Positions 49,002-53,346 of a stretch of 64,000 nt of DNA are shown one piece after another (positions within the stretch are counted from its first letter, which is position 1; every line of letters starts with the position of its first letter). Location: NCBI RefSeq assembly GCF_009193175.1, contig NZ_VUKE01000021.1, forward strand, positions 1 to 64,000, written 5' to 3'. A program made the translations under genes and the position numbers. The DNA comes from Georgenia ruanii (GTDB lineage Bacteria; Actinomycetota; Actinomycetes; Actinomycetales; Actinomycetaceae). Below the pieces are notes generated by a model. The model saw only the letters and a program-made list of their open reading frames with translations. It was not told where the DNA came from and made no database searches.

Positions 49002-49007
49002 ATGCTA
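49002..49007 (-). promoter_or_regulatory. -10 element of the second IclR gene
   Basis: TAGCAT (minus strand) ends seven bases before the ATG at 48994 with no ribosome-binding site, a leaderless arrangement that also decides the start. Confidence 0.5.
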
Positions 49008-50273
49008 CCGGGCACGCCGCTGTCCCCGTGCTGGGTCGGCTCCAGGACCCCCGCCCCGTGCCGGGCCCGCTCCCGGACCCCCGCCCCGGGGCCGGGCCCA
49101 CTCCCGGGCGCTGGTGCCCTCGTCCACCGGGGTCTCGGTCGCGGCGGGCGTCTCGACCGTCGTGTCCGGGCTGGACGCCGCGGCGGGGGCGGCGTCGCCG
49201 GCGGGCCGGCGATCGGCCGGGGCCTCGGGGATGACGTGACGCTCGTGAGCGGCCCGGGCCTCCGCCACGGAGCGCTCGGCGGCGGCGATGCGCGCGTCCT
49301 TGCGGTTCTTGGCGAGGCTCGTGAGGACGGTGATCGTCAGCACGCCGACGATCCAGGCCAGCGAGACGAGGATGGTCGGCTCGGGGACGACGTCCCAGTG
49401 CTCGCCGCCGTTGACGAAGGGCAGCTCGTTCTCGTGCAGGGCGTGGATGACGAGCTTGACGCCGATGAAGCCCAGGATCGCGGCCAGCCCGTAGTGCAGG
49501 TACACGAGCCGGTCGAGCAGGCCGTCGATGAGGAAGTACAGCTGGCGCAGCCCCAGGAGCGCGAAGGCGTTCGCGGCGAAGACGATGTACGGCTCCTTGG
49601 TCAGGCCGAACACCGCCGGGATGGAGTCGACGGCGAACATCAGGTCGGCCGTGCCGAGCGCGAAGATGCAGATGAGCAGCGGGGTGATGAACGTCTTGCC
49701 GTGGGCGCGGTGGAGCATCTTGTCCCCGACGAAGCCCTCGCTGACTGGCATGATGCGCCGGATCATCCGGACGACGGCGTTCTCGTGGTAGCCCTCCTCC
49801 TCCTCGGACGGCCCGCCGGAGCCCTCGCGCGCCTGGGAGTAGGCGGTGTAGAGGAGGAAGGCGCCGAAGAGGTAGAAGACCCAGGAGAAGTTCTGGATCA
49901 CCGCGGCGCCGACGAGGATGAAGATCAGCCGCAGCACCAGCGCGATGATGATGCCGGAGAGCAGCACCTTCTGCTGGAACTCCCGGGGCACCCGGAAGGC
50001 GCCGATGATGATGATGAAGACGAAGAGGTTGTCCACCGAGAGGCTGTACTCGGTGATGTAGCCGGCGAAGTACTCGCCGGCGTACTGGGCGCCGTAGATC
50101 CCCCAGAGGATCAGGCCGAACACCACGGCCAGCGACACGTAGAACGCCGTCCAGCGCGCCGCCTCCCGCATCGACGGGGCGTGCGGGGTGCGCACGTGGC
50201 CGAGGATGTCGATGGTGATCAGGATGACGACGACCAGCCCGAGGCCGGCCCATCCGAGGGCGTGGACGTCCAC
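49005..50273 (-). CDS. TerC/Alx-family integral membrane protein
   Basis: A 422-residue TerC-family protein; members export or buffer manganese and support metal loading of secreted proteins. It has seven to nine helices with the family motifs FAGYITEYSLSVDNLFVFIIIIGAF and ALGTADLMFAVDSIPAVFGLTKEPYIVFAANAFALLGLRQLYF, whose membrane aspartates (DN, DS) are intact. The C-terminal 80 residues are Ala/Pro/Gly-rich and not conserved. GGAGG stands five bases before the GTG at 50273; this Shine-Dalgarno is complementary to an upstream strand of the riboswitch-like leader, indicating metal-controlled translation. Confidence 0.92.
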   Translation of the reverse strand: MDVHALGWAGLGLVVVILITIDILGHVRTPHAPSMREAARWTAFYVSLAVVFGLILWGIYGAQYAGEYFAGYITEYSLSVDNLFVFIIIIGAFRVPREFQQKVLLSGIIIALVLRLIFILVGAAVIQNFSWVFYLFGAFLLYTAYSQAREGSGGPSEEEEGYHENAVVRMIRRIMPVSEGFVGDKMLHRAHGKTFITPLLICIFALGTADLMFAVDSIPAVFGLTKEPYIVFAANAFALLGLRQLYFLIDGLLDRLVYLHYGLAAILGFIGVKLVIHALHENELPFVNGGEHWDVVPEPTILVSLAWIVGVLTITVLTSLAKNRKDARIAAAERSVAEARAAHERHVIPEAPADRRPAGDAAPAAASSPDTTVETPAATETPVDEGTSAREWARPRGGGPGAGPARGGGPGADPARGQRRAR

Positions 50274-50278
50274 AACTT

Positions 50279-50322
50279 CCTCCGGTACGTAGGGATGTGC
50301 GAGCAGCACGAGGTACCGGAGG
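50279..50322 (-). promoter_or_regulatory. Expression platform: anti-Shine-Dalgarno pairing
   Basis: The ribosome-binding strand GTACCGGAGG (minus strand of 50279-50288) is perfectly complementary to CCTCCGGTAC (minus strand of 50313-50322) across a 24-base loop. The latter also forms the 3' strand of the aptamer basal helix, so ligand binding would free the ribosome-binding site. Confidence 0.75.
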
Positions 50323-50433
50323 TCTCTTCCGCCGCGCCCGCCGGCTTCCCGGCGCGGGCCCGGCCGGTGGCACCGAGCAGGCGCGACGCCTGCCGTGATG
50401 ACGGCACCACCGTTGCGGGAATACTCCCCTCCG
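50317..50433 (-). ncRNA. Putative yybP-ykoY (manganese) riboswitch upstream of the TerC gene
   Basis: The leader starts CGGAGG-GGAGTA and ends GAAGAGA-CCTCCG; the two hexamers pair as the basal helix, and GGGGAGTA with AGACC are the conserved aptamer elements of the yybP-ykoY class. Between them are GCCGT/ACGGC, GCAGGCG/CGCCTGC and GGTGG/CCACC helices and a long GCCGGC-rich arm. The class senses Mn2+ and typically precedes Alx/TerC or MntP genes, as here. Confidence 0.78.
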
Positions 50434-50440
50434 CCGTCCC

Positions 50441-50446
50441 AGGATA
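50441..50446 (-). promoter_or_regulatory. -10 element of the TerC transcript
   Basis: TATCCT (minus strand) lies just before the aptamer, predicting transcription start at about 50434 and an RNA beginning at the basal helix. Confidence 0.5.
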
Positions 50447-50593: not shown

Positions 50594-52690
50594 TCAGGCG
50601 TTGGCCGCCGTCATCTGTCGGAGCTCCTTCTTGAGGTCGCCGATCTCGTCGCGCAGCCGGGCGGCGAGCTCGAACTGCAGCTCCTCGGCGGCGCCGTGCA
50701 TCTGGTCGGAGAGATCCTGGATGAGCTGGGCGAGGTCGCTGGCCGCGGCCCCGGCGAGCTTCTCCCGCGCCGACGTGCCGGCCTTCTTCTTCTCCTTGCC
50801 GCCCGGTCCCTTGCCCGCCCCGCGGTAGCCGCCCTCGAGGAGCTCGGCGGTGTCGATGTCCTCGCGGGCGAGCATGTCGGTGACGTCGGCGATCTTCTTC
50901 CGCAGCGCCTGCGGCTCCACCCCGTGCTCGGTGTTGTAGGCCACCTGCTTCTCGCGCCGGCGGGTGGTCTCCTCGATCGCCTGCGCCATCGACGGGGTGA
51001 TGGTGTCGGCGTACATGTGCACCTGGCCCGAGACGTTGCGGGCCGCGCGGCCGATGGTCTGGATGAGCGAGGTCGAGGACCGGAGGAAGCCCTCCTTGTC
51101 CGCGTCGAGGATGGCCACGAGGGAGACCTCGGGCAGGTCCAGGCCCTCGCGGAGGAGGTTGATGCCGACGAGGACGTCGAACTGGCCCATCCGCAGCTCG
51201 CGCAGCAGCTCGACGCGGCGCAGGGTGTCGACGTCGGAGTGCAGGTAGCGCACCCGGACGTCGCGCTCGAGCAGGTAGTCGGTGAGGTCCTCGGCCATCT
51301 TCTTCGTCAGGGTGGTGACCAGGACGCGCTCGTCGCGCGCCACCCGCTCGCGGATCTCGCCGAGCAGGTCGTCGATCTGGCCCTTGGTCGGCTTGACCAC
51401 GACCTCGGGGTCGACCAGCCCGGTCGGCCGGATGATCTGCTCGACGACGCCGTCGGACTGGCTGAGCTCGTAGGGACCGGGGGTCGCGGAGAGGTAGACG
51501 GTCTGGCCGATCCGCTCGAGGAACTCCTCCCAGCGCAGCGGCCGGTTGTCCATGGCCGAGGGCAGACGGAACCCGAAGTCGACGAGGGTGCGCTTGCGGG
51601 ACATGTCCCCCTCGTACATGGCCCCGATCTGCGGCACGGTCACGTGAGACTCGTCGATGACGAGGAGGAAGTCCTCCGGGAAGTAGTCGAGCAGGGTGTT
51701 CGGCGCGCTGCCGGGCTCGCGGCCGTCGATGTGCCGGGAGTAGTTCTCGATGCCCGAGCACGTGCCGATCTGGCGCATCATCTCGACGTCGTAGGTGGTG
51801 CGCATGCGCAGGCGCTGGGCCTCGAGGAGCTTGTTCTGCCGCTCGAGCTCGTCCAGCCGCTCGGCGAGCTCGGCCTCGATGCCCCCGATCGCCCGCTCCA
51901 TCCGCTCCGGGCCGGCGACGTAGTGCGTGGCCGGGAACAGGTGCACGGACTCCTCGGTGCGCACCACGTCGCCGGTGAGCGGGTGCAGCGTGCTGAGGGA
52001 GTCGATCTCGTCGCCGAAGAGCTCGATGCGGATGGCCAGCTCCTCGTACACCGGGATGATCTCGATGGTGTCGCCGCGCACCCGGAAGGTGCCGCGGGTG
52101 AAGGCCATGTCGTTGCGGGTGTACTGCATCGCGACGAACTGGCGGAGCAGGTCGTCGCGCTCGACCTGCTGCCCCACGTGGAGCTGGACCATCCGGTCGA
52201 CGTACTCCTGGGGGGTGCCCAGGCCGTAGATGCACGACACGGAGGCGACGACGACGACGTCGCGGCGGGTGAGCAGCGAGTTGGTGGCGCTGTGGCGCAG
52301 CCGCTCCACCTCGTCGTTGATCGAGGAGTCCTTCTCGATGTAGGTGTCCGTCTGCGGGACGTACGCCTCGGGCTGGTAGTAGTCGTAGTAGGAGACGAAG
52401 TACTCCACGGCGTTGTTGGGCAGCAGCTCGCGGAACTCCGTCGCCAGCTGGGCGGCGAGGGTCTTGTTCGGCGCCATGACGAGCGTGGGGCGCTGCACCT
52501 GCTCGATGAGCCACGCCGTCGTGGCGGACTTGCCGGTGCCGGTGGCACCGAGGAGCACGATGTCCTTCTCCCCCGCCCGCAGCCGCTCGGTCAGCTCGGC
52601 GATCGCCGTGGGCTGGTCGCCCGAGGGCTGGTACTCCGAGACGACCTGGAACGGGGCCACCGCACGCTGGAGGTCGGTCACTGGACGCAT
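50594..52690 (-). CDS. uvrB: UvrABC system protein B
   Basis: UvrB is the helicase-like damage-verification subunit of excision repair. The 698-residue protein has Walker [12 protein letters not shown], the beta-hairpin region [30 protein letters not shown] (Walker B), helicase motifs [13 protein letters not shown] and QTIGRAARN, and the C-terminal UVR domain [13 protein letters not shown] that binds UvrC. The ATG is six bases after TACCGT with no ribosome-binding site. No LexA box was found upstream. Confidence 0.98.
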
Positions 52691-52696
52691 GAGGCA

Positions 52697-52702
52697 ACGG
52701 TA
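52697..52702 (-). promoter_or_regulatory. -10 element of uvrB, leaderless start
   Basis: TACCGT (minus strand) ends six bases before the uvrB ATG (52690). Confidence 0.55.
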
Positions 52703-52782
52703 CGTCGCGGCACCGACATCGGGTCGGTCGCGTACGCCACCGGCGGACGACGCCACCGGGGCCGCGGCGCCAAAGGGGCCGG

Positions 52783-53346
52783 TCAGTCGCGAGGGGCGTC
52801 CCGCGGGGCCATCCCGGGCCGCCCGACGCCATGGCCGAGAGCCTCTCCCCTCTCGGCCTGCTCGACGGTCGCGACGAACCGGGTGAGCAGCTCGGCGAGG
52901 GCCCGCCGGTCGGTGTCGTCCCAGGAGGCGAGGGACTGCGCGAGCGCCTGCCCGCCGGCCGCGCGGACGCGCTCCCGGACCTCCCGCCCGTGAGCGGACA
53001 GGGTGAGGAGGGACGCCCGGCCGTCCTCGGGGTCGGGGCGCCGGTCCACCAGGCCCGCCCGCTCCAGGCGCCGCACCTGCGGGGTGACGGTGGACTTGTC
53101 CACGCCCTGCCAACCGGCGAGCGTGGTGACCCGCATGGGCCCGTGCGCGGCAAGGGCGTCGATGAGCCAGGCGTCCGTGGGCGTGAGCTCCACGCCGTCG
53201 CCGGTCCACAGGCGGGTGCGGACCGCCGAGCGGCTCGTCCACCGCAGCAGCGCGAGAAAGGCGGAGTGGAGCTGCTCGTCAGCGTCGCCGGGCCGGGGGG
53301 CCTCGTCCACCACCGCGGGGCCGGGCCGAGTCCTGACCTTCTCCAT
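52783..53346 (-). CDS. MarR-family transcriptional regulator
   Basis: A 187-residue MarR regulator with helical dimerisation ends and a central winged helix ([67 protein letters not shown]), including the DxR wing motif. It is divergent from the FtsH gene with 102 bases between them, and a palindrome in that spacer overlaps the FtsH promoter, so it probably represses ftsH and possibly itself. The ATG lies eight bases after TAGCCT. Confidence 0.88.

Follow-up and report, generated by a model that had tools for sequence, protein, structure and literature searches.

The stretch of DNA analysed here, 64,000 nucleotides from Georgenia ruanii (hereafter the window), contains a structured leader in front of a TerC-family gene, and it raises the question of whether this leader is a riboswitch of the yybP-ykoY (Mn2+) class and how it would control the gene. 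We consider it very probable that this is an alx-type yybP-ykoY riboswitch and that it controls TerC translation. By analogy with known members of the class, from which we infer the binding of Mn2+, the docking and the direction of control, it is best read as a translational ON switch for Mn2+. The downstream gene (49005-50273, minus strand, GTG start at 50273-50271) encodes a TerC-family integral membrane protein (PF03741, E 3.6e-50). The leader lies between this gene and the one directly upstream of the riboswitch-TerC unit (50594-53242, also minus strand), which we take from its sequence to be uvrB. The order uvrB-leader-terC recurs in several relatives (e.g., L013, L017, and L027).

All elements of the leader lie on the minus strand. 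A -10 box, TATCCT (50441-50446), precedes the aptamer, which opens with the 5' strand of the basal helix P1.1, CGGAGG (50428-50433, partner 50317-50322), the L1 element GGGGAGUA (50422-50429) and the 5' strand of P1.2, UUCC (50418-50421, partner 50327-50330). The 5' strand of P3, GGUGGUGCCG (50402-50411), forms 10 of 10 pairs with CGGUGCCACC (50366-50375) and is followed by the 7-nt L3 bulge UCAUCAC (50395-50401), the predicted Mn2+ site, and by a distal stem-loop (50376-50394) that is predicted by folding and varies among relatives. After a predicted P4 hairpin (50331-50364), whose length differs among relatives, come the 3' strand of P1.2, GGAA (50327-50330), AGACC (50321-50325) and the 3' strand of P1.1, CCUCCG (50317-50322). 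The latter is common to the aptamer and to an anti-Shine-Dalgarno strand, CCUCCGGUAC (50313-50322), which is the exact complement (10/10 nt) of GUACCGGAGG (50279-50288). This last strand carries the Shine-Dalgarno (SD) sequence GGAGG (50283-50279), with five bases between it and the GTG start of TerC. The first-pass annotation, made from the sequence, had named the -10 hexamer, the basal helix, the conserved motifs and the two complementary strands, every one of them correctly placed to the base; it had overlooked the L3 bulge, which is the second core element, as well as helix P1.2 and the fact that another riboswitch-TerC unit exists elsewhere in the genome. The leader fold is more stable than that of shuffled sequences (z about -2.4 to -2.8). 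Within the window, no other exact 10-nt hairpin of the SD/anti-SD kind occurs, and the leader is the sole GGGGAGTA-N-GTCA site on either strand of the window.

To check the class assignment, the first-pass annotation had proposed a covariance-model search against RF00080 and had named a missing hit as grounds for rejecting it. This outcome occurred: neither cmscan at gathering and relaxed thresholds nor the genome search gave a match on the leader at any reported E-value, and no match above the cut-off was obtained in 59 genomes (its own and those of relatives). Weak matches elsewhere in the genomes were judged to be chance. The E. coli alx leader is an established member of the class. Used as a control, it had no RF00080 match either, up to an E-value of 1, and E. 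coli mntP scored 41.6 bits against a cut-off of 45. RF00080 also found none of 18 motif-bearing leaders located before TerC/Alx genes in Actinomycetota and Proteobacteria. A model that misses alx, underscores mntP and misses all these related leaders is uninformative as a refutation. In the printed RF00080 model, the P1 helix is absent and the model ends before AGACC (seen on L042:3462-3558 and L041:6300-6600), so that the failure to match corresponds to a limit of the model rather than to a defining biological feature; the absence of P2 from the leader and of P1 from the model probably both contribute to it. The link to the class, as read from the sequence, rests on shared motifs and architecture and not on a model score. 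The missing RF00080 match could also mean that this is a structured leader unrelated to yybP-ykoY in which similar words occur by chance. We regard this as extremely unlikely: the three core elements follow one another in the expected order, P3 has 10 bp and a 7-nt 5' bulge, the spacing is that of alx, the motif is linked to TerC, and RF00080 fails on alx too.

The comparative data support the assignment. We selected 30 loci, including that of the window, by TerC protein similarity and not by the motif, and read the 29 distinct ones. The elements GGGGAGUA, CGUCA and AGAC(C/U) were present in this order within the TerC leader in 28 of them, the window's own included, and one locus had no such ordered leader. 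Covariation was examined on a loop-trimmed composite alignment of 27 loci; a MAFFT-based covariance-model alignment was poor in the middle and was set aside, and L008 was excluded because its automatically assigned P3 partner was wrong. Within the 27-locus alignment, L1 GGGGAGUA, the CGUCA of L3 and AGAC were invariant. The helices P1.1, P1.2 and the L3-bearing P3 had 93.2% of cells paired, against 78.6% in shuffles, and two-sided compensatory changes affected 15 of 23 aptamer pairs; no shuffle out of 500 scored as high. The covariation score of 0.48 exceeded both that of shuffles (0.20) and the values obtained on sliding (0.18 or less). The basal helix was 95% paired over the 27 loci, P1.2 covaried through compensatory UA/CG/AU changes, and P3, which in relatives has up to 10 pairs followed by the 7-nt 5' bulge, showed two-sided compensatory changes at most of its pairs. 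The comparative data bear out the yybP-ykoY identity put forward in the first-pass annotation, and its choice of TerC as the target.

The features used to recognise members of the class are present in the leader: L1 GGGGAGUA adjoins the basal P1.1 helix, the 7-nt L3 bulge on the 5' side of P3 starts with UCA and has an invariant A, the 3' AGACC runs into P1.1, and the whole forms the 5' leader of a gene of the TerC, MntP or cation-ATPase type. A four-way junction with P2 was not found, only 3-6 nt separating P1.2 from P3 in the leader and its relatives. The L1-L3 spacing (GGGGAGUA to GUCA) is 17-20 nt in 28/28 loci, compared to 19 nt in alx and 29 nt in mntP. The leader is thus of the alx type, with a three-way junction, because its spacing matches that of alx and leaves no room for P2. 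In its centroid fold, E. coli alx likewise forms no hairpin where P2 would stand, between P1 and P3; since alx shares both this spacing and this fold, membership does not depend on P2. The leader further resembles alx by GGGGAGUA, by CGUCAU(U/C)ACG on a P3 of 10 bp that bears a 7-nt bulge, by the P4 hairpin, by GAGACC, and by the TerC-family gene downstream. It differs from alx in the organism and the helix sequences, and in that the 3' strand of P1.1 also serves as the anti-SD, in direct pairing with an SD located 24 nt downstream. With mntP it shares L1 GGGGAGUA, P3 with the 7-nt L3 bulge, P4 and AGACC, whereas mntP and the RF00080 consensus have a four-way junction with an additional P2 between P1 and P3. 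It is unlikely, in our estimate, that the TerC leaders of Actinomycetota form a distinct P2-less, three-way-junction subclass tuned differently from the classic Mn2+ switch; such a subclass may, for example, be gated by pH or prefer another metal.

A yybP-ykoY leader before terC has also been annotated in another actinobacterium, in the cg2157 5'UTR of Corynebacterium glutamicum, where it reached 49 bits under an earlier version of RF00080 and where transcription start was mapped near the 5' edge of the aptamer (PMC3890552). The -10 hexamer proposed in the first-pass annotation was confirmed for our locus by its recurrence: a TANNNT box sits just upstream of the aptamer at a near-constant distance in 27 of 28 loci versus 8% of shuffles. 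Because of this constancy, the transcript should begin at the aptamer edge, with a predicted start about 6-7 nt downstream of the box.

Our own covariance model (R1), built from the composite alignment of relatives, gave 24 matches outside its training set in the 59 genomes, 20 of which sit 30-91 nt before a TerC match; the other four were weak. Since the alignment was loop-trimmed, R1 penalises real sequences for their inserts and, in some, puts part of P3 in the wrong place. It scored only 8.5 bits on E. coli alx and failed to recover the E. coli mntP aptamer as a whole, and we therefore argue the kinship to alx and mntP from motifs, topology and spacing. A second aptamer is present in the same genome (G000:C11:295275-295397, L192), before the second TerC gene of this genome. 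It also carries CCUCCGGUAC...GUACCGGAGG, but has UCAGCAC in place of UCAUCAC as its L3 bulge.

How would such an aptamer act on TerC? The 3' strand of P1.1 is part of the anti-SD, so that the two pairings are mutually exclusive, as claimed in the first-pass annotation, and this arrangement, by which we recognise a translational ON switch, is conserved. In most relatives the complement of the anti-SD is a Shine-Dalgarno sequence just before the start codon, and in the nearest relatives the helix is exact; 102 of 147 motif loci have the core complement and, 3-12 nt after it, a start codon. When anti-SD strands were swapped between species, with the core alone setting the register and species relatedness remaining in the comparison, the five outer pairs had an observed mean of 3.83 versus 3.09 (maximum 3.33), and none of 2000 permutations reached the observed value. 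Among 61 unique strand combinations, the corresponding values were 3.36 and 2.75. The strands themselves diverge, being CCUCCGGCAG/CUGCCGGAGG in Streptomyces loci and CUUUCGACGA/CCGUCGAAAG, with ACGAAGG as P1.1, in metagenome-assembled genomes (MAGs) labelled Bifidobacterium. Judged from these loci, the anti-SD helix is covarying across Actinomycetota, which bears out the exclusive pairings.

When folding of the growing chain was simulated, the aptamer, P1.1 included, formed at 121-150 nt, and the anti-SD hairpin appeared from about 155 nt onwards. With the choice of 3' end, the energy of the OFF fold came out about 7-12 kcal/mol below that of the ON fold, and enforcing P1.1 was predicted to make the SD only partially accessible. 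The switch would thus need ligand binding or kinetic control. Transcription termination is used by other members of the class, e.g., in Lactococcus lactis (PMC11087558), and the present leader might likewise act through termination or RNA decay rather than ribosome access. We find this very improbable here, since the alternative hairpin holds the Shine-Dalgarno sequence, the leader sequence has no U-run after it, and the anti-SD partner is an SD-like core followed by a start codon in the 102 loci mentioned above.

We therefore retain ribosome access as the controlled step and propose the following course. Transcription would start at the 5' edge of the aptamer, and the nascent RNA would fold first as the aptamer, with P1.1, L1 GGGGAGUA, P1.2, P3 with its L3 bulge UCAUCAC, and P4. 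At high Mn2+, docking of L1 and L3 around the Mg2+ and Mn2+ ions would hold P1.1 in place, and this helix would keep CCUCCG off the ribosome-binding site so that TerC would be translated. At low Mn2+, CCUCCGGUAC would leave P1.1 and pair with GUACCGGAGG, hiding the Shine-Dalgarno sequence. This proposal follows the mechanism described for the class, in which L1 and L3 sandwich Mg2+ and Mn2+ and N7 of A41 confers selectivity (PMC11087558, PMC9190785). In L. lactis yoaB, the Mn2+ site lies in L1 and L3 and switching involves helix P1.1 (PMC11087558, PMC9190785), elements that our leader shares, although yoaB works by transcription antitermination. The Mn2+-site nucleotides of L. lactis (G9, U39, C40, A41, U44, and C45; PMC9190785) fit GGGGAGUA and UCA..AC of the leader, with the first A of the bulge as the counterpart of A41; U44 is replaced by A, as in alx.

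In this lineage, the same aptamer fold might mainly report alkaline pH or another divalent metal instead of Mn2+ alone. In E. coli, the alx leader reacts not only to Mn2+ but also to alkaline shock, and mntP, under translational ON control by Mn2+ to which alkaline pH adds, requires both for full activation (PMC9603457). Against this, the aligned relatives retain the positions of the Mn2+ site (UCA and C in L3, GGGGAGUA in L1), and putative P-type cation ATPases are among the non-TerC genes behind the motif. We hold this explanation to be improbable and keep Mn2+ as the preferred ligand.

The riboswitch class was already known; what is new is an alx-type subtype conserved across Actinomycetota, its covarying three-strand switch, and a blind spot of Rfam. 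Because this widespread actinobacterial branch is invisible to the present Rfam model, automatic annotation is expected to under-report Mn2+ control of TerC in genera such as Cellulomonas, Streptomyces, Nonomuraea and Saccharopolyspora. As a mechanism, the conserved three-strand switch is simple and directly testable.

A pattern scan of the genome contigs (genome_contigs) found at least 118 motif loci, and in 92 of the 118 listed, a homologue of TerC or Alx follows on the same strand. P-type cation ATPases are a known Mn2+ target type for the yybP-ykoY class. Judging from sequence, the motif presumably precedes large genes of this type at four loci (L043, L072, L075, and L140), found in Acidimicrobiia and other actinobacterial MAGs, and what we take to be further TerC-like proteins at L069 and L089. 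Six other loci (L059, L080, L095, L106, L122, and L156) carry the full motif before genes in which no metal-export role was obvious by eye, among them an acyl-CoA ligase-like and an HtpX-like protease gene; they could possibly be new targets, or short upstream ORFs may intervene. Finally, a Nonomuraea sp. contig (L049) has two motif matches pointing apart, at 1760-1860 on the minus strand and 1944-2047 on the plus strand, possibly a pair of divergent riboswitches.
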